A DNA stretch of 64,000 nt from Caldicellulosiruptor changbaiensis (GTDB lineage: Bacteria > Bacillota > Thermoanaerobacteria > Caldicellulosiruptorales > Caldicellulosiruptoraceae), in the NCBI RefSeq assembly GCF_003999255.1, contig NZ_CP034791.1, positions 1,652,501 to 1,716,500 on the forward strand. Direction: 5' to 3'. The notes below the pieces were generated by a model. The model saw only the letters and a program-made list of their open reading frames with translations, did not search any database and was not told the DNA's origin. The position numbers and the translations under genes are program-made. Every line of letters starts with the position of its first letter. The first letter of the stretch is position 1. Positions 48,372 through 64,000 of this stretch are shown piece after piece.

Positions 48372-48971
48372 CTAAATTTCTTTTCTTCCTTCTATTGCTT
48401 TAAGAATTGTTACCTCATCTGCGTATTCAATATCGCCGCCAACCGGAATACCACGGGCAATTCTTGTCACTTTAATACCCATTGGCTTTATAAGTCTTGC
48501 CAAGTATGACGCTGTTGCCTCACCATCCACATCCGGGTTTGTAGCAATTATTACTTCTTTTACATTAGTATCAGCAAGTCTTTTTAGAAGAACATCAATT
48601 GTCAGCTGTTCAGGATATTTACCTTTGAGCGGTGATATTGCACCATGCAGTACATGGTAAAGTCCTTTGTACTCCTTTACCTTTTCAAGGGCTACAACAT
48701 CCTGAGGCTCCTCAACAACACAAATTATGCTTCTGTCTCTTTTATCGTCACTGCATATATGACAAATATCATCTTCTGTAAAGTTGCAACATATTTTGCA
48801 CAATTTTGTGCTATTTTTGGCACTTAAGATTGCCTCTGCCAATGCTTTTACATCTTCATTTTTCATATTAATTATATAAAAAGCAAGCCTCTGTGCAGTT
48901 TTTTGGCCTATGCCAGGCAGTTTTTCGAGCTGCTGGATAAGTTTTGAGATAGCATTTTCTTTTGCCTGCAT
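48372..48971 (-). CDS. recR: Recombination mediator RecR
   Basis: With RecO helps load RecA on gapped DNA. The N-terminal helix-hairpin-helix is [18 protein letters not shown]. The zinc finger [16 protein letters not shown] lies about 57-72, and the Toprim domain has [13 protein letters not shown] and [17 protein letters not shown]. 199 residues, normal. It starts 17 bp after ybaB, the conserved order. Confidence 0.97.
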
Positions 48972-48988
48972 ATTATATCAACCTCATC

Positions 48989-49330
48989 TTAAAAAAGACC
49001 TGGAAACCCAAAACCTGCTACCTTTTGCATCTCTTCTTCTATCATTTTTTCAACCTTTCTAATTGCCTCATTTACACATGCAACTATCAGATCCTGAAGT
49101 GTTTCAATGTCATCTGGGTCAACAACCTCTGGTGAAATCTCAATACTTTTAATCTCCTTTTTACCATTTATAACAACCTTTACAGCACCGCCACCTGCAG
49201 TAGCTTCAACTTCTCTTTGGTTTAACTCTTCTTGTAGCTTTTCAATCTCCTCTTGCATCTTTTTTGCCTGTTTTTGAAGCTGATTTATGTTAAAACCGCC
49301 ACCAAGTCCTGGAAACCTGTTTTTTGCCAT
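48989..49330 (-). CDS. YbaB/EbfC nucleoid-associated protein
   Basis: A 113-residue DNA-binding protein. NINQLQKQAKKMQEEIEKLQEELNQREVEATAGGGAVKVVINGKKEIKSIEISPEVVDPDDIETLQDLIVACVNEA is the full family pattern, a helical arm plus central sheet. In Bacillus it lies between dnaX and recR; dnaX is not upstream here, where an sbcC-like gene is found instead. Confidence 0.93.
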   Translation of the reverse strand: MAKNRFPGLGGGFNINQLQKQAKKMQEEIEKLQEELNQREVEATAGGGAVKVVINGKKEIKSIEISPEVVDPDDIETLQDLIVACVNEAIRKVEKMIEEEMQKVAGFGFPGLF

Positions 49331-49389: not shown

Positions 49390-51963
49390 TTATACAACAA
49401 AAATTTTGGACCCTTCCACATCTTTTTTTACAACTATCCTCTGGTCAAACGCGTCCATCAAATCCTCAATATGGGTTATTACAAGTATTGTATCAAATTG
49501 GTCCTTGATTTGATTTAAACACTCTATTATGTGGTCTTTCCCTTCTTCATCCTGTGACCCAAAACCCTCGTCCAAGATTAGCATTTTAATTGAGGCACCT
49601 GCTCTTTTTAAAAGTACCTTTGCAAGAGCTATCCGAATAGCAAAGTTGATTCTGAAAAGTTCGCCCCCTGAAAAAAGTTCGTAGTTTCTTGTACCATTTT
49701 TATCTGAAATCTCTATTTGGAGTGTTTCTATTGTCTTACCAGAGGCCATTTCCTTTTGTGTTTTAAAATCAATTGAAAAAGCCCCGTTTGTCAAAAGTTT
49801 TAAAAGCCGGTTTGCCTCATCCCTGACAAGTGGCAGCGTGTTTGCAATTATCTCATTTTTAATTCCATCAGGACCAGTTATGTCAATGATGATATCATAA
49901 ATTTCTATTTCTCTTTTTATCCCTTCTATCTCTTTTTCAAGTACAAGCAGCTTTTCCTTTGCCTCTTTGACTTGGCTGAGCTTCTGCTCAAAAATGCCTA
50001 TTTCTTTTAAGACAGAGTTTAAATCTTCTTGAAGCTGATTGATTTTGGTCTCATAACTATTTATATCTGATTTAATCTTTGTAAGTTTTTCGTCTAATGA
50101 TTGAGAAAGCATATTAGATAATTCTTTGTCTATCTCTTGAATCTTCTTTGAAAGTTCATCTTCCTCCTTTTGATACTCAAGCATATTCTTTTTCAGATTC
50201 TCTGCCTTTACCTTGTTTATCTCTATTGTTTTTAGTAAATTTTGATATACCTCAAGCTCTTTTACCTTTTGTAAATGAGCATTGTAATCTTCCTCATTAA
50301 AGTTTAATCTATCAAGTTCATCCTTTAAATCTTTTAGTTTTAACTCAAGTTTTATTATTTCCTGCTCACAGACTTTTATATTTTGTTCATCGTGAAAAAT
50401 TGAATCTTGTAAGTTTTTGATATTTTGTTTTTTTTGCTCTATTTTTGCCTTTAAATTTTCATATGCACCATGAAGCTTCTTCTCTTTTGTGCGTAAAACC
50501 TCTTCTTGTTTTACCTTTTCTTCAAGCTCTTGATACTCTTTTTTAAGGCTTGATAGCTTTGTATTTAATTTTTCTTTCTTTTCTTTGTACTCCTTCCCTT
50601 GAGATGCTATTTCTCTCTTAATATGCTCCTTTTCCTCTTCGCCATTTATCTCGCGCAAACATACAGGACATTTTCCTTTATTTGACTCAATTAACTTATA
50701 GCTTGTTGCAAGTTCTTTAAGCTTACTATCAACTACTTCTAAAAACTTCTCAATCTTTGTAATCTCCTCTCTTTTTACTTCTAATTCTTGCTTTAGTCCT
50801 TTAACCTTCTCAAGCTCTTTCTCAACGTTGGAAATCTCAATTTCTGACTTTTTTAACTCTTCATCATACTTAGAAAGCTCCGAGTTTTCGTTGCCAAGCT
50901 TTGCAGTAGTCTCTTTCACAGATTTTTCAAATATCTTTTTTTGCTCTATCTTCCCACTTATCTCCTTTTCAATAAGCGCTATGTCATTCTTCAGTTTCAC
51001 AAATGTATCATAGTCTTTTTTAAGAGCTTCTAAATTGTTTTTGAGAGTCTCATATTCTCTTGCTTTTAAAGTTATTTCAGGTTCACTTTTTAGCTCATCT
51101 TCTATCTTTGAAAGCTCTTTTTTGCTATCTTCAATCCTCTGTTTTATATTCTCATGTTTTCTTTTAATCTCTTCTCTTTCTTTTTTCTTTTCTTCAATGG
51201 TCTTGAGGTTTTGCTCTGTTTCATATTTTTGAAATATAAGACTATTTAGCTCATTTTTAAGCGCATCTAACTCGCCTGCAATCTTCTTTGATTTTTCTTC
51301 AAGCTCTAAGATAGATGTTTTGATACTCTCTTCTTCACAAGTAATTTTTATCTTCTCTTCACTTTCCTTGATTTTGAGATCAAGCACTACCTTTTTTTCT
51401 TTCCTCTTTTCCTTTGCAAGCTCATTTATTCTGTCATACACGCTGAGGTTCAAAATCTTAGCTAAAATCTCGCGCCTCTCCTCTGGTGATGATAACAAAA
51501 AGTCTTCTGTTCGCTTTTGAGAAAGGTATGCCGAGTGTAAAAACACGTTAAAGTCTATCCCTAAAATCCTTTCCAGTCTGTTTTGTGTCTGGGTATAGTT
51601 TGCTTCACTAATTGGAATAAGCACATCGTTTTTCTTGATAAAAAGAGAAAGATATTTTTTCCCTCTTCTATCAAGCCTTCTCACAACCCTGTACACAAGC
51701 TTATCTATCTCAAACTCAAACTCAACCTGCATGTAATCTTTATGTGAGTTTATATACTCTGTCTCTGAGATTTTGCCCCGCTTGCCAGTCTGAAGCCTTT
51801 CAAATTCCCCGAAAAGTGCCCATGCAATTGCCTCTGCAATAGATGACTTTCCATTTCCATTTTTACCTACAATACATGCAACCTTGATATTTTTAAAGTC
51901 AATCTCATTGAAACTTTCACCATATGATTTAAAATTCTCAATCTTCAAATAAAGTGGTCTCAA
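49390..51963 (-). CDS. sbcC: SbcC/Rad50-family ATPase
   Basis: Partner of the SbcD/Mre11 nuclease in processing DNA ends and hairpins. N-terminal LRPLYLKIENFKSYGES and GKNGNGKSSIAEAIAWALFG (Walker A); long coiled coils with the zinc-hook GKCPVCLREI in the middle; C-terminal ELFSGGELFRINFAIRIAL signature and MLILDEGFGSQDEEG Walker B. The TTG used has GGTGGGGG upstream and lies just after the sbcD stop. About 857 residues, which is nearer archaeal Rad50 than the 1000+ of E. coli SbcC. Fifth gene of the nurA-herA operon. Confidence 0.94.
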   Translation of the reverse strand: MRPLYLKIENFKSYGESFNEIDFKNIKVACIVGKNGNGKSSIAEAIAWALFGEFERLQTGKRGKISETEYINSHKDYMQVEFEFEIDKLVYRVVRRLDRRGKKYLSLFIKKNDVLIPISEANYTQTQNRLERILGIDFNVFLHSAYLSQKRTEDFLLSSPEERREILAKILNLSVYDRINELAKEKRKEKKVVLDLKIKESEEKIKITCEEESIKTSILELEEKSKKIAGELDALKNELNSLIFQKYETEQNLKTIEEKKKEREEIKRKHENIKQRIEDSKKELSKIEDELKSEPEITLKAREYETLKNNLEALKKDYDTFVKLKNDIALIEKEISGKIEQKKIFEKSVKETTAKLGNENSELSKYDEELKKSEIEISNVEKELEKVKGLKQELEVKREEITKIEKFLEVVDSKLKELATSYKLIESNKGKCPVCLREINGEEEKEHIKREIASQGKEYKEKKEKLNTKLSSLKKEYQELEEKVKQEEVLRTKEKKLHGAYENLKAKIEQKKQNIKNLQDSIFHDEQNIKVCEQEIIKLELKLKDLKDELDRLNFNEEDYNAHLQKVKELEVYQNLLKTIEINKVKAENLKKNMLEYQKEEDELSKKIQEIDKELSNMLSQSLDEKLTKIKSDINSYETKINQLQEDLNSVLKEIGIFEQKLSQVKEAKEKLLVLEKEIEGIKREIEIYDIIIDITGPDGIKNEIIANTLPLVRDEANRLLKLLTNGAFSIDFKTQKEMASGKTIETLQIEISDKNGTRNYELFSGGELFRINFAIRIALAKVLLKRAGASIKMLILDEGFGSQDEEGKDHIIECLNQIKDQFDTILVITHIEDLMDAFDQRIVVKKDVEGSKIFVV

Positions 51964-51982
51964 AATTGATCCCCCACCTTTT

Positions 51983-53242
51983 TTAGTCACCTTGTACCTC
52001 TTCAAACAAGGATTTAAATGTCGCAACCACATCATCTTTGCTTTTTATATCTTTATACTTTGGGCTTGCAGATAAAAACCTTTCAAATGCAAAAATAGGA
52101 TCTGATTTTTCATCAACCTCGACAATTCTAAAATCTCTTTTGGCATCAGTAACTTCTATCTCAATTGGGGCTAAAATGAAACACCTATCTTTTAAGTGCT
52201 CTTCTACTTTGGTCAAACTAAGTCTTTCTTTTAGCAAACTCTGTGTCCTTATTATAAGCTTTACAACCGATGCTTTAATGTTAGCAGATGAGTTTTCTTC
52301 TAATTTCTTTATTTTTTTGTCTATCTCTGAAATGAGCACTTTTTCTACATCACCATTTGCCTCAAACAAATCAATTTCAAGCTGATAAAAAGGCCTGACA
52401 ACAACAGGCTTAAACTCAAACCAAAAATTTTCTCTGCCTATTTCAAATACCACAAAACCTTTTTGGTCTTGTGTTTCTGAAAAGTCTATTCTGTCAGGCG
52501 AGCCACAGTACACAACTGCCGGATTTTTGGAATTTAAAATCTGGGGCTTGTGAATATGTCCAAGTGCAACAAACTTAAGTTTTGGATGCAAAAGCACAGA
52601 AAGCGGTACTTTTACATCTTTCCCTATCATAATCATTCTTTCACTGCCAACTTCAGCTTCATTGACTGTAAAATGGCCTGCCAAGATTGTCGGTATATCA
52701 TCTCTTGAGGAGTCTAAAACCTCTGTCAATTTTTCTTCGAAGAAATTTGCAATGTTTTGTTCAAGCTGCTCAATCTTCTCAGGGATTGTTTTATCTATAA
52801 ACCTTTCAAGGTAAAGATAGGGTACAGCTATAACTCTGAGTTTTTCTCCCTTTATATCAAACACCCTTGTTTCAAAAAGCTTATCCATCACAACAATATT
52901 TTCTTGCTCGAATATTTCAAAAACCTTGACTGAATGATGTTTTGCCTCAAACGGGTGCATGTCATGATTCCCAGGTACTATTACAACCAATACGCCTTCT
53001 TTTGCAATCTCAACAACCCTTTTGTAGAACATATTTCGCAAGGTAGAGTTCGGCTCTCTGTCCTTGAATATATCACCAGTGATGAGCAAAAGGTCTATAT
53101 GGTTTTGCCTTATATACTCTAAGATTCTATCAAATGTCCTGAAAAAATCATGAACACGCGACCCCAGCCCATCTGGAGTCTCTTTGCTATATGTTGTCAC
53201 ACCAAAATGAAGGTCTGCTGTGTGAACACCTCGTATTGGCAT
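51983..53242 (-). CDS. sbcD: SbcD/Mre11-family nuclease
   Basis: A manganese-dependent 3'-5' exonuclease and endonuclease. The phosphoesterase motifs are in order: HTADLHFG (7-14), LLITGDIFKDREP, VIVPGNHDMHPFEAKHH, LAGHFTVNEAE and VALGHIHKPQIL. The capping region after about 300 is less conserved. 419 residues. Twenty bp upstream of sbcC, with which it forms the M2R2 complex. Confidence 0.94.
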   Translation of the reverse strand: MPIRGVHTADLHFGVTTYSKETPDGLGSRVHDFFRTFDRILEYIRQNHIDLLLITGDIFKDREPNSTLRNMFYKRVVEIAKEGVLVVIVPGNHDMHPFEAKHHSVKVFEIFEQENIVVMDKLFETRVFDIKGEKLRVIAVPYLYLERFIDKTIPEKIEQLEQNIANFFEEKLTEVLDSSRDDIPTILAGHFTVNEAEVGSERMIMIGKDVKVPLSVLLHPKLKFVALGHIHKPQILNSKNPAVVYCGSPDRIDFSETQDQKGFVVFEIGRENFWFEFKPVVVRPFYQLEIDLFEANGDVEKVLISEIDKKIKKLEENSSANIKASVVKLIIRTQSLLKERLSLTKVEEHLKDRCFILAPIEIEVTDAKRDFRIVEVDEKSDPIFAFERFLSASPKYKDIKSKDDVVATFKSLFEEVQGD

Positions 53243-53273
53243 TTATATTTCACCCTTTATTTTAAAAGACTTT

Positions 53274-54941
53274 TTAATACTCCATATCTTTCAAAAACTC
53301 TTCAGAGGCTTCAAGTGCCTTTCTGTAATTGTCTTCAACATCGCTCTTTGGACTGTAAATCGAAACAAAATCATAAAAGCTCTGGTCATACCCTCTTGTT
53401 TTTATTGCAATTGGCATTGGAACAGCATGACCAATCACAAGTGCCTGCTGTTTTGAATCAAGAGACTCAACAATAGCCCTCAGTTGTTTACTATTTTTCA
53501 TGCCAGCAAGCGCACTTGCAATGTCCGCTTCATCAGAAAGTGCTAAAATCACCCTTGTACCTATTTGTGAGGCAATCTCACTGTCTATCTGAGATGGACG
53601 CTGGTCTATGCACATAAGACTTACCTTTGCCTTTCTCATCTCTCTTGCTATTGTGCCAAATATTGTCTGTTTTGCAACATCCGGTGATAAAAATCTGTGT
53701 GCTTCCTCAATTGCAATAACAAGCGGTCTTGGTGCTGGATATTTTTTTCTGTTTGAGATGTGTTTTTCGTACATCTCCATGTATTTATTGTATATTCTTC
53801 TTGACAATACATTTGTGACAAATAAGTAGTTTAGGAGCTTGTCTCCTTTGCCAAAGGTTATGTCAACGCTAATTCCTTTTTGAAGATAATCAAGGATTAT
53901 ATCAATAGAATTTGTTCCAGGACTTCTGTCGTACTTAAGATAAGGAAGCTCTTTTAATACAGAAAGTTTTCTTATAAGCGCTAAAAGTGAACTTCTGTTG
54001 ACAATAGCCTCACTGTCTTTAAACTCCTCAGCAAGCTCCTCACCATTTACCAAGATTTCCTGAAGCCAATGTCTTCCTTGGGCCTCTAACTTATTTTTAA
54101 GTGCAATCATCACTTGTTCAGCTGTTTCATTTAAGTTTAGCTCTTCAGAGATTGACAAGATGTCCTCAACCTCAACATCTCTCACATCAATCTCAATTGG
54201 AAGCACTCCTGCCCTGTTTACTGAACTGCTCTCAATTGTCATTATCTGCATTTTGTTTCCAAAAAGACTTTTTAAACCTTTTACATGATGGTTTTCCTCA
54301 TCAACGCTATCTGGACCGTGGTCTGAGTGCGCATCAAATATCAGCAAAGACGCCTTATCAGAAAGAATAATCCCTGCCATTATAAGCCTTGCAATAAATG
54401 ACTTTCCTGTGCCTGTTCGACCGTAAATACCACTGCTTCTTTCAATGAACCTGTCTATGTCAATACACACCTGCGTACTTTCGTCCATGTCCAGAACATT
54501 TCCGATAGGGAAAAAACGCTTTGGATCCTTTTCAAAACTTCCAAATACATCTTGGATATCATCATATGTTGCCTTTCTCACGCTTGATGCATGAAGAGGA
54601 ATATTTCTAATTGGCTGGTTTTTACCTTCTTGCAAGTCAAATGCAAGAATAGGCTGGGCCTTAAATATTGTGTAAATTGAAGTTCCTCTTGTGATTCTAT
54701 TTAAAAGAGAAAATTCAGTGCCTCTTGGAAGCTCAGTTAAAGATTGCTTGTTCATACCTTCTATGACCATATCAGTGAGCATACAATAGTACTTTTTCTT
54801 TTCTGTTTGGCTAACCAAGATGCTACCTATTCTTGTATCCTCAATGATAGAATCATCTTCAACCTTTATTGCAAGCCCTTCTAAAAATGAACCGCCTATG
54901 ACTTTGCCAATCTTTTGCTCAGTATAAAACTTTTCTGGCAT
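53274..54941 (-). CDS. herA: HerA-family DNA translocase ATPase
   Basis: A 555-residue hexameric FtsK-HerA superfamily ATPase that drives NurA in DNA-end resection. Its N-terminal HAS-barrel-like domain begins MPEKFYTEQKIGKVIGGSFLEGLAIKVED. Walker A is GIYGRTGTGKSFIARLIMAG (about 170-189), Walker B is RPLVIAIEEAHRFLSP, and the C-terminal part has SQIGTRVILALSDEADIASAL. The order nurA - 197-residue gene - herA - sbcD - sbcC resembles archaeal operons. Bacterial HerA homologues exist in thermophiles and Deinococcus. Confidence 0.88.
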   Translation of the reverse strand: MPEKFYTEQKIGKVIGGSFLEGLAIKVEDDSIIEDTRIGSILVSQTEKKKYYCMLTDMVIEGMNKQSLTELPRGTEFSLLNRITRGTSIYTIFKAQPILAFDLQEGKNQPIRNIPLHASSVRKATYDDIQDVFGSFEKDPKRFFPIGNVLDMDESTQVCIDIDRFIERSSGIYGRTGTGKSFIARLIMAGIILSDKASLLIFDAHSDHGPDSVDEENHHVKGLKSLFGNKMQIMTIESSSVNRAGVLPIEIDVRDVEVEDILSISEELNLNETAEQVMIALKNKLEAQGRHWLQEILVNGEELAEEFKDSEAIVNRSSLLALIRKLSVLKELPYLKYDRSPGTNSIDIILDYLQKGISVDITFGKGDKLLNYLFVTNVLSRRIYNKYMEMYEKHISNRKKYPAPRPLVIAIEEAHRFLSPDVAKQTIFGTIAREMRKAKVSLMCIDQRPSQIDSEIASQIGTRVILALSDEADIASALAGMKNSKQLRAIVESLDSKQQALVIGHAVPMPIAIKTRGYDQSFYDFVSIYSPKSDVEDNYRKALEASEEFLKDMEY

Positions 54942-54961
54942 CTTTCATTCACCCTTTTTTG

Positions 54962-55555
54962 CTATAAGTGAGAAATTAAATTTTCCAGTCTTTCAACAAT
55001 AGGAGTAAGAAGATTTAAGTCATATTTAAGATATGCGTTGAGCTCTTTCCCCATATGTTCTATGTACTCATAATCCTTTTCTCTTGCAATATAGGCAAAG
55101 TAGAGCATCCACGGAATTACCTCAACAATATCAACATCCTTTGCTTTTATAACAGAGTTTAGAAATAAACTGCTTTGTGTTGCCAAAAGTATATCCTTTT
55201 TGTCTGCTAACTCAACCATTGTGTGAAGCCTTATACTTCTGTCCGGAAGGCAGTTTATGAACTTGCCATTTGATATAAAGCCAAGGATTATGCACTTAAA
55301 ATAACCTTTTAAAATCTGCTCAAGCTGCGGATAAAACCTTTTCAGCTCATCAGGTGTCTTCCACAAGGCCCGCGGATATCCTTCTTGTGATATACTTCCT
55401 ATGTCATACCTTGTAACACACCCCAAGACCTTGTAGTTATCAAGCTCAAATTTTATAAACTGGCCGGCTGTAGGAATATTATCAAGGTCCTTTGCTTCAC
55501 ATGTAATTTGAGTAAAAGAAATGTCAATTATCTCACCAACTGCCATCACCAGCAC
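54962..55555 (-). CDS. Uncharacterised protein with HAS-barrel-like N-terminus
   Basis: A 197-residue protein between nurA and herA. GEIIDISFTQITCEAKDLDNIPTAGQFIKFELDNYKVLGCVTRYDIGSI resembles the N-terminal barrel of HerA and of ATP synthase subunits; the remainder is helical (PWMLYFAYIAREKDYEYIEHMGKELNAYL). No catalytic motif or membrane helix is visible. It may link NurA to HerA or regulate loading. The barrel match is by eye and uncertain; linkage is strong since gaps are only 10 and 20 bp. Confidence 0.6.
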   Translation of the reverse strand: MLVMAVGEIIDISFTQITCEAKDLDNIPTAGQFIKFELDNYKVLGCVTRYDIGSISQEGYPRALWKTPDELKRFYPQLEQILKGYFKCIILGFISNGKFINCLPDRSIRLHTMVELADKKDILLATQSSLFLNSVIKAKDVDIVEVIPWMLYFAYIAREKDYEYIEHMGKELNAYLKYDLNLLTPIVERLENLISHL

Positions 55556-55565
55556 AACTCCTTTT

Positions 55566-56738
55566 TTATACTATCCTCTTGACCTTATTATTCTTCTTTG
55601 CAGAATATGGCAAAATAGCATCTCCAACCCCCAAAAGCATATTTTCTATAGCTGCTTTGTCCTGATGTGAGATAGTAGAAAACTCATGAGCATGGGTAAG
55701 TGATATAGGATAACCAAACCCAACCTGGCACTGGTGATATATTGCACCGATACATTTTTTAAGCCATTTTTCATCTTTTGCAACATAAACAGGAATTTCT
55801 ATTCGTGCAATCTCGTAGCCAGTTGCAAGGTAAACAAAGGTAATATCCATGTCTTCAAACTCGTCAAATGCTCTTCCTAAGGTGTAAAATACATTAGAGT
55901 GCTGCCCACTTCTTAGGTGCGAAAACAAAAATACATCTCTTATTCTCTCTATCTTTTCACAATTTCTCTTTTCTTCTCTGCTGCACTCCTTACAATCAAT
56001 CCTCATTTTCTCACAGTTATATATCCTATAAAGATTAGAAATAATAGAGTTCTTTGGCATTGAGATAAAACCACAAACTGCTATGTTTTTTTGTTTTGCC
56101 ACACTAAAAATCCTTTCAAGCTCAAGATTTGCTCTTCTGCCAAAGCGTAAACCCTGCCTGTCTTGTGTCCAATCAATGAGATTTCCATCATAAAGAACAA
56201 GTCTTAGCTCACTTTTTGGTAAAGAGTTTTCAACATACTCTAAAATAGCCATGTACTCTTTTGTTTGTCTTTCTCTTGAGATTTCTGATGGGCTTTTGAT
56301 TGCCTGAGCTTCTTTTCTTGAGTAAAGCTCTTCATCAAGGTAAATGTAAGGATATGTTTGGTAATTAAAATTGCTATTTTCATTGTCATAAGTAATTTCT
56401 ACACAGGCAATGTTCAAAAGGTAGTAAGGCTGTGAGATATGTCTGTCAATCTCTGTATTGCTGCCATCCACCGCAAATACCTCATAATTTGTCTGAACCT
56501 CACAAGAAAACCCCTTCATGAATTCATCGAAATTGCTATAATATGGAAGACAAAATAAGATTTCGTTTTTCTCGTCCTTCCTTGGAATTTTAGAAAGCAC
56601 CTTTTCTATCTTTTGACCATCTAAAAAGCTCAAAAACTTAAAAACCTCATGAATATTTTCTTTTATCTCTTTTTCCTTTTCCAATATCACATTCTTCTTT
56701 TCACTTATCTGCTGGACTAAATTGTGTAAATCTAACAT
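55566..56738 (-). CDS. nurA: NurA-family 5'-3' nuclease
   Basis: A 390-residue protein. EVFAVDGSNTEIDRHIS supplies the first metal-binding Asp of NurA, and LRLVLYDGNLIDWTQ a second; the C-terminal SLTHAHEFSTISHQDKAAIENML fits the final conserved block. An acidic, helical N-terminus precedes these. NurA works with HerA to resect 5' ends after Mre11-Rad50. The ATG used follows a promoter by about 45 bases; the ATG 13 codons earlier would give an almost leaderless mRNA. First gene of the five-gene operon. Confidence 0.82.
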   Translation of the reverse strand: MLDLHNLVQQISEKKNVILEKEKEIKENIHEVFKFLSFLDGQKIEKVLSKIPRKDEKNEILFCLPYYSNFDEFMKGFSCEVQTNYEVFAVDGSNTEIDRHISQPYYLLNIACVEITYDNENSNFNYQTYPYIYLDEELYSRKEAQAIKSPSEISRERQTKEYMAILEYVENSLPKSELRLVLYDGNLIDWTQDRQGLRFGRRANLELERIFSVAKQKNIAVCGFISMPKNSIISNLYRIYNCEKMRIDCKECSREEKRNCEKIERIRDVFLFSHLRSGQHSNVFYTLGRAFDEFEDMDITFVYLATGYEIARIEIPVYVAKDEKWLKKCIGAIYHQCQVGFGYPISLTHAHEFSTISHQDKAAIENMLLGVGDAILPYSAKKNNKVKRIV

Positions 56739-56788
56739 TTTCTCACATCCACTATCCCTAATGTAATCGACCATCATTAATCACTTAA

Positions 56789-56817
56789 ATTATATCATTA
56801 TAAATGAAATTTATCAA
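56789..56817 (-). promoter_or_regulatory. Promoter of the nurA-herA-sbcDC operon
   Basis: On the minus strand TTGATA (56812-56817), 17 bases, TATAAT (56789-56794). The expected start near 56782 supports the NurA start at 56738. Confidence 0.7.
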
Positions 56818-56821
56818 ACAT

Positions 56822-57295
56822 TTATTCGTGTAATAGAACCACAGCGTAAGCTGAAACTCCTTCCTCTCTTCCCTCAAATCCCAAACCTTCTGTTGTTTTC
56901 CCTTTTATGTTCACTTGAGTTTTTTCAATATTTAAAGCTTTTGCAATGTTTGTCTTCATCTCATCTGTGTATGGAGAAATCTTTGGTTTTTGGGCTACTA
57001 TGGTTGTATCTATGTTAATTATACTCATACCCTTGTTTTCCAAAAGTTTTGAAACTTCTTTTAAAAGGATGATACTTGAGATATCCTTGTATTTCATATC
57101 AGTGTCAGGGAAAAGTCTTCCAATATCATTTTCGCCCATAGCACCAAGGATGGCATCAATTATTGCGTGAATCAAAACATCCGCATCAGAATGTCCTAAA
57201 AGCCCTTTTTCAAATGGAATCTCAACACCACCTAAGATTAGTTTTCTGCCTTCTGAAAAGCGGTGCACATCAAAACCAAAACCTACTTTGAACAT
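56822..57295 (-). CDS. ispF: 2-C-methyl-D-erythritol 2,4-cyclodiphosphate synthase
   Basis: Fifth step of the MEP isoprenoid pathway. The zinc ligands are in [40 protein letters not shown] (Asp8, His10, His42 region), and [22 protein letters not shown] closes the active site. 157 residues. ispD is not adjacent. It lies 6 bp after the MNT gene and may be read with it. Confidence 0.97.
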
Positions 57296-57301
57296 TGCTC
57301 T

Positions 57302-57601
57302 TTAATCTCCCCTCTCATAAATTACTACACCCTCTTTTAGTATTTTCTCCTTAAGTGCCTGGCAACTCAATTTATTAAAATCGATTATATCTATCTTGTA
57401 AATCCCTGCTGCTTCGTCTAAGTCTGACATAAGGCCCGGTTCTATTTCTCCTTCTGTTAATATGGCTATATCAATATCTGAATTGTATTTATAATCTTCT
57501 TTTGCTCGTGAGCCAAATAACAATGCTCTTTTAATATTTTTTCTTTTTTTTAACTCCACCACAATTTTATCTAAAACATCTTCAGGAATTCCAAATCTCA
57601 C
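57302..57601 (-). CDS. MNT-domain nucleotidyltransferase (MntA-type antitoxin)
   Basis: A 99-residue minimal nucleotidyltransferase. ALLFGSRAKEDYKYNSDIDIAILTEG has the GS-X(n)-DxD motif. In studied HEPN/MNT pairs the MNT protein adenylylates the HEPN toxin and silences it. GTG start overlaps the HEPN stop (GTGA), after GAGGTGATA. Complete and normal in length. Confidence 0.87.
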   Translation of the reverse strand: MRFGIPEDVLDKIVVELKKRKNIKRALLFGSRAKEDYKYNSDIDIAILTEGEIEPGLMSDLDEAAGIYKIDIIDFNKLSCQALKEKILKEGVVIYERGD

Positions 57602-57996
57602 TCTATCACCTCTTTCATCTTTCTCTCAAGGTCGCAAAACTTAGAAAAATATTTTTCTTTCACTCTTAAATATATCTGCTGAGCTATTTTTTCATCATAT
57701 GTGTGAACAGTTAAATTCCTGTCTTCAATCATAGAAATCCAGGCATCTCCATCACCAATCAGTCCTGCTGAAAAAGCTTCTTTAAAAACTTTCCGCGGTG
57801 TGTTTACATCTGAAATTCCTTCTAATTCAAGATATGCTTTTAAAAGCTTCCAAGCAAGTTCATAGGTGAATTCAAACCTTTGAATCACTGCATCATACAA
57901 TAGCGGATTTGAAGTGTCTTCTTCCAATGCTTCTTTTAACCGAAAAAGAGCTTTTTGATAGTCAGCCAACCTTTCTCTAACTCTTTCTTTATTCAT
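57598..57996 (-). CDS. HEPN-type toxin / nucleotidyltransferase substrate-binding protein (HI0074 family)
   Basis: A 132-residue helical protein: RLKEALEEDTSNPLLYDAVIQRFEFTYELAWKLLKAYLELEGI is the HI0074-family signature. EDRNLTVHTYDE holds the HEPN RX4H ribonuclease motif (R-NLTV-H). Paired with the MNT gene, which it overlaps by 4 bp. Expected to be an RNase toxin or tRNA-directed nuclease when unmodified. Confidence 0.87.
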   Translation of the reverse strand: MNKERVRERLADYQKALFRLKEALEEDTSNPLLYDAVIQRFEFTYELAWKLLKAYLELEGISDVNTPRKVFKEAFSAGLIGDGDAWISMIEDRNLTVHTYDEKIAQQIYLRVKEKYFSKFCDLERKMKEVIE

Positions 57997-61864: not shown

Positions 61865-64000
61865 TTGGCAACAGGGGCAAAGTACTATCATTCATGCATA
61901 AACTGTGGTGGTATCAATTCAGATACAAGAAACCAAAAAGGACTTCCATGTGAAAAGTGTCTACCCTTTGAAAATGGCATGAATATCCTTGAAAGTTTAA
62001 AACAATACAATAGCCTCAAAGATTATGCCTACTTTTGGAATTTTCAAAATGAATATAAAGAGTTTGAAGACTTTTTTGTGTCAAAGGTTGGAAAGCCAAT
62101 GACAGGATATCAGCGGCTCTGGGCAAGGCGGCTTTTACTTTCAAAAAGCTTCACATTAATTGCTCCCACAGGCCTTGGTAAGACAACATTTGGACTTGTT
62201 GCAACACTGTGGATGGCAAAAGCTGGCAAGAAGGTAGCTTTAATCTTCCCTACTGTATCACTTGTTGAACAAGCGCATCAGAGACTCCTTGAATTTGCTA
62301 ATAAAGAGCCAAAAGAAAATGTTAAAATTTTGTCATATAAGTCATCAATGAAAAAAACTGAAAAGGATGAGTTTGAAAAAAGCTTTGAAAATGGCGAATT
62401 TGACATCCTAATTGTCTCATCGCAATTTATATCAAAGCGAAAGGACGACCTTGCAAAGAAGGTATTTTCATTAGTGTTTGTAGATGATGTTGATGCTATT
62501 TTGAAATCTTCAAAAAACATTGACACTCTTTTACAGATGATTGGTATTGACCAAAAGACAATTGATAAGACTTTTGAAAACCTCAAAAAAGGCACTAAGT
62601 ATTCTGATCAAAAACTAAACGGCACACCTTCTACTTCATCGAAAGGTATTCTCATTGTATCTTCTGCCACTGCAAAGCCACAAGGACTAAAACCTCTTTT
62701 GTTTAGAGAGTTGCTTGGATTCGAAATAGGTAGATTTACATTCAGTATAAGAAATATTACAAATATAAGAATTGCTGAAAAGTCAAAAGAAAAGCTGCTT
62801 GAGACAATCAGAATTCTCAATGATGGAATCCTGTTATTTGTGGAAAATGAAGAAGAAGGCAAAGACGTGACAAACTTTTTAGAAAATAAAGGAATACCTG
62901 TTGGTAAAACGTGGGAAGATTTCGAAAAAAGTTTTGAGCAATTTAGAGAGGGAAAGCTCAAAATCCTATGTGGTATATACTCATACTATGGAAAGCTTGT
63001 AAGAGGCATAGACCTACCTTTGAGAATAAAGTATTCAATATTTTGGGGAACACCCTCGTTTAGGTTCTCAACAGATATTGAAAAGGCGCCCCGGTTTGTC
63101 TTAGAGAGAGTGTTTTCTGACTATCTTGAAGAACATCCCAAGCTAAAAAGCTTCTTTAAAAACATAGATAGATATCAAGTCGAAAGGTTAAGAGAGGTAG
63201 TAAAAAAATATATTCCTCAAGATAGGTGGGTTGCTTTTGTTAAAAAGTCCTTCCCAAACTTGAAAATCTCAGATGAGGGTCAAATATTCTTTCCTGATGT
63301 TTTCACATATATCCAAGGCTCTGGTAGAACATCACGAATGCTGGGTAGTTCTTTAACAAAAGGAGTTTCAATCCTATTTGAAGATGATAATCTACTTTTT
63401 GAGAGTCTTAGGTCAAGACTCATGTTTTTGCTTGATGAAGAGTGGAAAACCGAAAATGAGGTATGTTTTGAAGATTTGATTAAAGAGGTTGAAATGAGCA
63501 GAAATGAAACTTTAATAAACGAGCGGTCTTCAGATTTAAAGTCAAGGCTTATGATTGTGGAATCACCCACAAAAGCTGAGACAATCTCAAAATTTTTGGA
63601 AAAAGCCTCCACAAGAAGGTATGGAAGGCTCTCTGTATACGAATCAGTGACTCCAGATGGAATTTTGCTCATCACTGCCTCAAAAGGACATGTTTATGAC
63701 CTTGATACAAAAACAGGCCTCCATGGAGTAGAAATATCAAATGGCAACTTTATCCCATACTATAACTCTATCAAACGCTGTACAAGCTGTGGCACACAGT
63801 TTACTGATGAGTACTCTTCGTGTCCCAAATGCGGCTCTGATAAGATTGATGATAAAAAGGAGATATTAAAGGTACTTCGCGAGATAGCAGCTGAAGTAGA
63901 CGAGGTTTTGGTTGCAACAGACCCAGATGTTGAGGGTGAAAAGATTTCATGGGATATATCTCAGTATTTAAAACCTGTCAACCAGAACTTAAGACGAATT
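61865..64000 (+). CDS. rgy: Reverse gyrase, partial (C-terminus outside window)
   Basis: Introduces positive supercoils using ATP; found in hyperthermophilic and some thermophilic bacteria. 712 codons are present, all open. The N-terminus has a zinc finger (YHSCINCGG ... CEKCLPF), then the helicase-like half with SFTLIAPTGLGKTTFG (Walker A) and SLVFVDDVDAIL (Walker B), and YIQGSGRTSR. The topoisomerase I half begins RLMIVESPTKAETISKFLEKA, contains a second zinc finger CTSCGTQFTDEYSSCPKCG, and reaches ATDPDVEGEKISWDI. The catalytic Tyr lies beyond the edge. TTG start with GGGGGAG 7 bases upstream. It follows the lysine operon terminator and is its own transcript. Confidence 0.96.
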   Translation, partial: MATGAKYYHSCINCGGINSDTRNQKGLPCEKCLPFENGMNILESLKQYNSLKDYAYFWNFQNEYKEFEDFFVSKVGKPMTGYQRLWARRLLLSKSFTLIAPTGLGKTTFGLVATLWMAKAGKKVALIFPTVSLVEQAHQRLLEFANKEPKENVKILSYKSSMKKTEKDEFEKSFENGEFDILIVSSQFISKRKDDLAKKVFSLVFVDDVDAILKSSKNIDTLLQMIGIDQKTIDKTFENLKKGTKYSDQKLNGTPSTSSKGILIVSSATAKPQGLKPLLFRELLGFEIGRFTFSIRNITNIRIAEKSKEKLLETIRILNDGILLFVENEEEGKDVTNFLENKGIPVGKTWEDFEKSFEQFREGKLKILCGIYSYYGKLVRGIDLPLRIKYSIFWGTPSFRFSTDIEKAPRFVLERVFSDYLEEHPKLKSFFKNIDRYQVERLREVVKKYIPQDRWVAFVKKSFPNLKISDEGQIFFPDVFTYIQGSGRTSRMLGSSLTKGVSILFEDDNLLFESLRSRLMFLLDEEWKTENEVCFEDLIKEVEMSRNETLINERSSDLKSRLMIVESPTKAETISKFLEKASTRRYGRLSVYESVTPDGILLITASKGHVYDLDTKTGLHGVEISNGNFIPYYNSIKRCTSCGTQFTDEYSSCPKCGSDKIDDKKEILKVLREIAAEVDEVLVATDPDVEGEKISWDISQYLKPVNQNLRRI

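Follow-up and report, generated by a model that had tools for sequence, protein, structure and literature searches.

Gene content of the locus

The DNA analysed is a window of 64,000 nucleotides (positions 1652501-1716500 of the single-contig genome of Caldicellulosiruptor changbaiensis, 2905633 bp), which contains a five-gene operon in the order nurA-P4-herA-mre11/sbcD-rad50/sbcC. All five open reading frames (ORFs) were confirmed on the minus strand (Table 1), with intergenic gaps of about 10-31 nt. The preliminary description of this DNA had reported five tightly spaced genes served by one promoter, which agrees with these ORFs and with a promoter conserved in the seven Caldicellulosiruptor-type genomes compared (the window species included). 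It had also recognised the adjacent NurA, HerA, Mre11 and Rad50 genes, all on one strand, as a set known from an archaeal operon, and this likeness stands. Three of the four enzymes are bacterial in sequence affinity, and the second gene encodes a stand-alone HAS-barrel protein, here called P4, which may be a third subunit of NurA-HerA. The probable start of rad50 is a TTG at 51963, located after the Shine-Dalgarno sequence AAAGGTGGGGG and supported by the relatives; with the start moved there the apparent overlap of mre11 and rad50 disappears.

The four enzymes

NurA matches Pfam PF09376 (2.8e-15; 56.9 bits against a cut-off of 21) and its AlphaFold model (predicted local distance difference test, pLDDT, 77.9) matches in VIA comparisons Sulfolobus NurA 2ygk (Z 18.8) and Thermococcus NurA (Z 17.4). 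Family and fold both identify it as an RNase H-like nuclease. Its acidic and histidine residues D104, E174, D197 and H364 are invariant in 20 aligned sequences; a NurA profile search of the PDB sequences gave no match at an E-value of 0.01. HerA matches PF01935 (DUF87; 5.3e-36, 125 bits against 23.2), carries an N-terminal HAS barrel of its own and conserves the Walker A (GRTGTGKS) and Walker B (EEAH) motifs in the alignment; as judged by family membership it is a hexameric-type DNA translocase. SbcD/Mre11, a calcineurin-like phosphoesterase, is over its family cut-off (TIGR00619, 120.6 bits against 77.65), and D10, H12, D57, N92, H93, H190, H229 and H231 are invariant in the alignment. SbcC/Rad50 is under the curated cut-off (TIGR00618, 226.6 bits against 478.5) and presents the Walker A motif, the zinc hook CPVC, the SGGE signature and Walker B. 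The alignments show intact catalytic motifs in all four enzymes.

As a separate observation, the P4-type NurA proteins share four invariant cysteines (C255, C262, C265 and C273 in the numbering of a 403-residue protein), spaced CX6CX2CX7C in the window protein and probably forming a zinc ribbon.

P4, a stand-alone HAS-barrel protein

The window P4 is matched by none of the models in Pfam, NCBIfam and PADLOC, and a search of the PDB with its sequence gave no match. Two relatives (L214 and L087) exceed the cut-off of the HAS-barrel family PF09378 (29.9 and 26.0 bits against 25.2), the window protein itself giving no match to it. The AlphaFold model (pLDDT 89.4; predicted template modelling score 0.85) is a beta barrel followed by a C-terminal helix bundle, with no ATPase domain. 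HerA chains are the top Foldseek matches (4d2i, 4e-7). VIA comparison gave Z 12.7-12.8 with HerA, Z 12.1 with 9c1m (root mean square deviation 2.1 over 97 residues) and Z 11.9 with the N-terminal barrel of F1-ATPase beta (1.4 over 73 residues). HerA and ATP synthase, the two fold matches, are the proteins from which the HAS barrel takes its name. The predicted fold of P4 is a HAS barrel with HerA as its closest match, and the earlier label of a HAS-barrel-like protein is thus borne out both by the relatives that pass the family cut-off and by the model.

P4 was present in 20 of 20 tested genomes bearing the P4-type HerA clade, from about nine other bacterial groups, within a sample of 36 genomes each picked for carrying P4 or that clade. 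In a census of 398 genomes of the phylum (266 genera) P4 was identified in 16, all of them with the whole operon. Outside this setting the linkage changes. The arrangement nurA-P4-herA was identified at 10 of 80 listed herA loci (Gemmatimonadota, Latescibacterota and Handelsmanbacteria among them), and P4 lies directly downstream of nurA with herA elsewhere in 7 of the 17 neighbourhoods examined; pairs of nurA and P4 with a distant herA occur in Dadabacteria, Thermodesulfobacteriota, Chloroflexales and the Roseithermus/Salinivenus group. Retention of P4 despite changing linkage is as expected for an obligatory partner. Neighbours of P4 of about 400 amino acids in Cyanobacteria were considered as a hidden NurA and rejected, six being FtsW/RodA and one a flavin adenine dinucleotide oxidoreductase.

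In solved complexes NurA is docked on the HAS barrels of HerA (PMC9960219, PMC12977600), so an extra HAS barrel is most plausibly part of that interface. It is tentatively proposed, at slightly less than even odds, that an entire bacterial class of NurA-HerA machines, in at least nine bacterial groups, has P4 as its obligatory third subunit. On this view P4 would be a HerA relative lacking the motor, which makes up the HAS-barrel crown, or the missing part of it, and fits the crown to NurA. Alternatively, P4 could be a regulator and not a structural subunit, covering the HAS-barrel face of HerA or competing for it and so turning NurA binding off. Such a regulator would share its fold with the docking face and could well be unlinked in some phyla, as P4 is; it is nevertheless unlikely, given that such a role alone leaves the repeated adjacency of nurA and P4 across phyla unexplained and that the position in the operon suits a stoichiometric part equally well. 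A third NurA-HerA subunit like P4 is undescribed in the literature searched, while the early papers that established herA clustering and the FtsK-HerA superfamily, outside that search, may mention a stand-alone HAS-barrel gene. Priority for such a gene is not claimed, and the gene set is the bacterial form of a kind already known.

Promoter and LexA-box-like site

The operon is preceded by what is, by its motifs, a strong, near-consensus promoter. Both hexamers and their 17-nt spacing are conserved in the seven congeneric genomes and the spacer sequence drifts. A LexA-box-like site, GAATAAATGTTT, abuts and partly overlaps the -35 element and fits the pattern GAAYRNATGTTT that is shared by the lexA and recA upstream regions of the seven species. 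The site was found exactly in all seven nurA promoters of the genus, against a background of 4 in 1290 random 300-bp stretches. The pattern has a single match in the window, yet one third of shuffled windows also hold one, and among 27 nurA promoters from the other Bacillota operon type (see below) 3 fit it as well. The LexA motif of a thermophilic clostridium matches that of B. subtilis (PMC8457756). The operon is probably under LexA/SOS control.

Proposed function

From the gene content and order, the families, the predicted folds, the co-occurrence and the conserved promoter we infer a bacterial-type operon for the processing of DNA double-strand ends, with P4 as a third subunit in the HAS-barrel layer, induced through LexA and acting alongside an AddAB-like enzyme. 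A probability of roughly 0.55 is assigned to this reading. Joint processing of DNA ends, as put forward earlier, is retained as the best guess for the gene set. Mre11-Rad50 would recognise a blocked or broken DNA end and open or clear it, and the HerA hexamer would pump the duplex into NurA, bound as a dimer to the HAS-barrel ring of HerA, for digestion. P4, which resembles a HerA cut down to a HAS barrel and a helical tail with no motor domain, would sit in the HAS-barrel layer and either connect the HerA ring, which is six-fold, with the two-fold dimer of NurA, or load NurA onto HerA. DNA damage would induce the operon through LexA, and the product would feed RecA-dependent repair in parallel to the AddAB-like enzyme.

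Several observations weigh against this reading. Thermococcus HerA-NurA was found to degrade both strands of double-stranded DNA, and the authors of that work question whether it acts in end resection (PMC12977600). The P4 genes of Cyanobacteria and of some Chloroflexota lie away from both nurA and herA, and the co-occurrence sample was a selected one. An exact-match search of the other operon-bearing genera did not show the LexA-like box, and the box includes the stop codon of ispF.

The Thermococcus complex suggests destruction of double-stranded DNA, which leaves room for a role in defence, with HerA-NurA-P4-Mre11-Rad50 as a chromosomally encoded nuclease that destroys the DNA of phages or plasmids in the manner of HerA-Sir2 or HerA-DUF4297. 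HerA family members are common in defence, the window HerA is weakly matched by HerA models of PADLOC (3.7e-33 at best) and Thermococcus HerA-NurA has been proposed as antiviral (PMC12977600). This is judged improbable in view of the constant chromosomal site of the operon, flanked by ispF and ybaB-recR in all seven congeneric species and in this genus only, of the high similarity across phyla and of the LexA-like box. In addition, the PADLOC search gave no match for P4 or NurA, and the neighbours are housekeeping genes, with neither a known defence nuclease nor a defence-island context. A second HerA-NurA pair of the genome, beside restriction-modification genes, fits defence better. This pair (L042:6005-9431, genome about 2872005-2875431) comprises a distant HerA of 681 amino acids and a NurA-like protein of 484, beside an AlwI-type restriction enzyme and DNA methyltransferases, and looks like a defence system.

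Distribution and sequence affinity

Linkage of NurA-HerA with Mre11-Rad50 had been described as a hallmark of hyperthermophilic archaea, which does not hold: the five-gene order including P4 was identified in 16 of the 398 phylum genomes (6 of the 266 genera) and in the Tectomicrobia genome KatS3mg131 (L086), 17 genomes altogether. NurA was identified in 57 of 299 phylum genomes and is therefore not rare in Gram-positives; NurA/HerA of Firmicutes and Cyanobacteria are already listed in a review (PMC8708640).

A profile of the operon HerA scored 623-739 bits across 80 listed loci (of at least 80 in a genome scan whose query patterns were built from the bacterial proteins), all with bacterial record titles, from Cyanobacteria, Chloroflexota, Gemmatimonadota, Latescibacterota, Dadabacteria, Dependentiae and others. 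The same profile gave 87 bits with Sulfolobus HerA, the archaeal yardstick for HerA, Mre11 and Rad50 being PDB chains, and 29-64 bits with the HerA of other Bacillota loci. For Mre11 the scores were 125 bits with Thermotoga Mre11, 99 with E. coli SbcD and 88 with archaeal Mre11 1ii7, and for Rad50 the best was E. coli SbcC (152 bits), followed by archaeal Rad50 3aux (137). By these scores the operon set is bacterial in its closest relatives and an archaeal affinity was found for none of the three proteins. A plasmid search with the operon HerA gave distant partial matches only.

Nor do all five proteins branch deep within Firmicutes, as an ordinary repair operon of that phylum had been expected to do. 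The genes are common to many bacterial phyla, and in the trees the HerA of one Bacillota genome (G035) clusters with those of Tectomicrobia and Latescibacterota, apart from the other Bacillota. The five gene trees are partly incongruent, one genome (G043) grouping with Caldicellulosiruptor for NurA and P4 and with the f3 genus for Mre11, and strict joint inheritance of the five genes is consequently not claimed.

A second operon type of Bacillota, without P4, has the order nurA-herA-mre11-like-rad50N-small coiled coil-rad50C, identical at 13 of 13 loci: L048 (3976-6176), L053, L062, L063, L067, L069, L073-L076, L078, L079 and L081. Here Rad50 is split into an N-terminal half of 431-506 amino acids that ends at half a zinc hook (CPxC), a middle coiled-coil ORF of 80-118 amino acids often ending in IPWDLLE, and a C-terminal half of 215-245 amino acids with the signature and Walker B.

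The window also encodes a complete reverse gyrase (1121 amino acids; TIGR01054, 1117.6 bits), whose start, at 61865, is 5 kb away from nurA; the gene is on the opposite strand, with dap genes in between. All seven congeneric genomes have it close to the operon. Over the 398 phylum genomes it exceeded the cut-off in nine, the seven of Caldicellulosiruptor type and two without the operon, and in none of the other nine operon-bearing ones; the idea of a maintenance set shared with reverse gyrase is thereby contradicted. A 'Rad50' profile match beside reverse gyrase was rejected as the coiled coil of a chemotaxis receptor. An archaeal operon gained by horizontal transfer together with reverse gyrase, as had been suggested, would agree with the gene set, which is that of thermophilic archaea, and with the vicinity of reverse gyrase throughout the genus. 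It is very improbable, since HerA, Mre11 and Rad50 are bacterial in affinity and since, beyond the genus, the operon and reverse gyrase do not go together, and an archaeal origin was rejected on the sequence scores of these three proteins, with PDB chains as the archaeal yardstick. An ancient exchange between the domains, before the bacterial phyla diverged, is still conceivable.

AddAB-like enzyme

The genome contains a pair (L041:4173-9714) of an AddB-like protein of 882 amino acids and an AddA-like protein of 974, with UvrD-type and PD-(D/E)XK nuclease domains. Their best family is addA_Gpos, whose cut-off is not reached, and 'AddAB-like' is therefore the proper name. Each of the seven congeneric genomes has the pair. 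In the second operon-bearing genus a larger AddA-like protein stands alone in one of five genomes and in the other four adjoins an AddB-like protein that matches weakly, and a canonical AddA (1257 bits) was identified in one operon-bearing genome of a third genus. That the operon replaces AddAB/RecBCD, another earlier suggestion, is scarcely tenable: an AddA-like protein was not found in the operon-bearing genome G035, where only a UvrD-like frame of 773 amino acids matched, but with the pair in the window genome and its six relatives, and AddA-like or canonical AddA proteins in two more genera, the idea fails in Caldicellulosiruptor.

Two side observations concern these proteins. Both members of the pair end in a CX2CX5C pattern, which suggests an iron-sulphur nuclease domain. 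At G179:C1:31529-33493 and similar places in G323, G277 and G301, a frame of 860-869 amino acids matches both an AddA/UvrD-type helicase and the LexA profile (over the LexA cut-off), which may reflect the fusion of a helicase with a LexA-type domain.

Comparison with known systems

The archaeal operon has nurA as its last gene, whereas the Caldicellulosiruptor operon has nurA first, contains an extra HAS-barrel gene and encodes HerA, Mre11 and Rad50 that are bacterial in sequence. The same four enzymes are encoded in one transcription unit in Sulfolobus, Pyrococcus and Thermococcus (PMC2288612, PMC12977600). The NurA-HerA of Deinococcus radiodurans is likewise a bacterial pair in which NurA docks on HAS barrels, and Foldseek pairs the NurA model of the window with 7f6d chain G (6.9e-8). 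D. radiodurans differs in being described as devoid of Mre11-Rad50 (PMC12977600), and its NurA-HerA complex in being described as two components only. With SbcCD the operon shares an SbcD over the family cut-off and, as best solved matches, the SbcCD of Thermotoga and E. coli, whereas its SbcC is under the subfamily cut-off and both are encoded with NurA-HerA, not alone. P4 resembles the PF09378 family in its relatives that pass the cut-off and in its fold match to the barrels of HerA and F1-ATPase, and differs in being a stand-alone barrel that carries a helix bundle of its own and lacks an ATPase domain. In the defence systems HerA-Sir2 and HerA-DUF4297 a HerA ring likewise feeds a nuclease on the HAS-barrel side (PMC11291478), but with another nuclease, without Mre11-Rad50 and in a mobile defence context.

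Flanking genes

The coordinates of the operon, its promoter and the adjacent genes are collected in Table 1. The interval from rad50 to ybaB-recR showed no terminator-like site, and transcription may therefore run on into these genes. Directly upstream of ispF, at 57302-57996, lies an MntA/HepT-like nucleotidyltransferase toxin-antitoxin pair whose ORFs overlap by 4 nt and which is below the type VII family cut-offs.

Table 1. Features of the operon and its surroundings (positions in the window)
Feature	Position	Strand	Remarks
ybaB + recR	48372..49330	minus	59 nt downstream of rad50
rad50/sbcC	49390..51963	minus	about 857 amino acids from the TTG; longer ORF from 52035
mre11/sbcD	51983..53242	minus	TIGR00619, motif alignment
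herA	53274..54941	minus	PF01935 (DUF87), motif alignment
P4	54962..55555	minus	197 amino acids; start probably 55546 as judged by relatives
nurA	55566..56738	minus	about 390 amino acids; probable start 56738 (MLDL), inferred from relatives; longer ORF from 56777
Predicted promoter	56789..56817	minus	TTGATA-17-TATAAT, TG ahead of -10; 5' of nurA, between ispF and nurA
LexA-box-like site	56816..56827	minus	GAATAAATGTTT; abuts and partly overlaps -35 of the nurA promoter; fits GAAYRNATGTTT
ispF	56822..57295	minus	immediately upstream of the promoter; stop codon overlaps the LexA-box-like site

Significance

The linkage of NurA-HerA with Mre11-Rad50 is not an archaeal hallmark. A role of HerA-NurA in end resection is disputed (PMC12977600), and a clade with a proposed, conserved third part, an operon with Mre11-Rad50 and apparent LexA control makes the question testable in a bacterial genus. 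If P4 is indeed an obligatory subunit, the work on Deinococcus would describe the two-part version of an enzyme that is mostly three-part.

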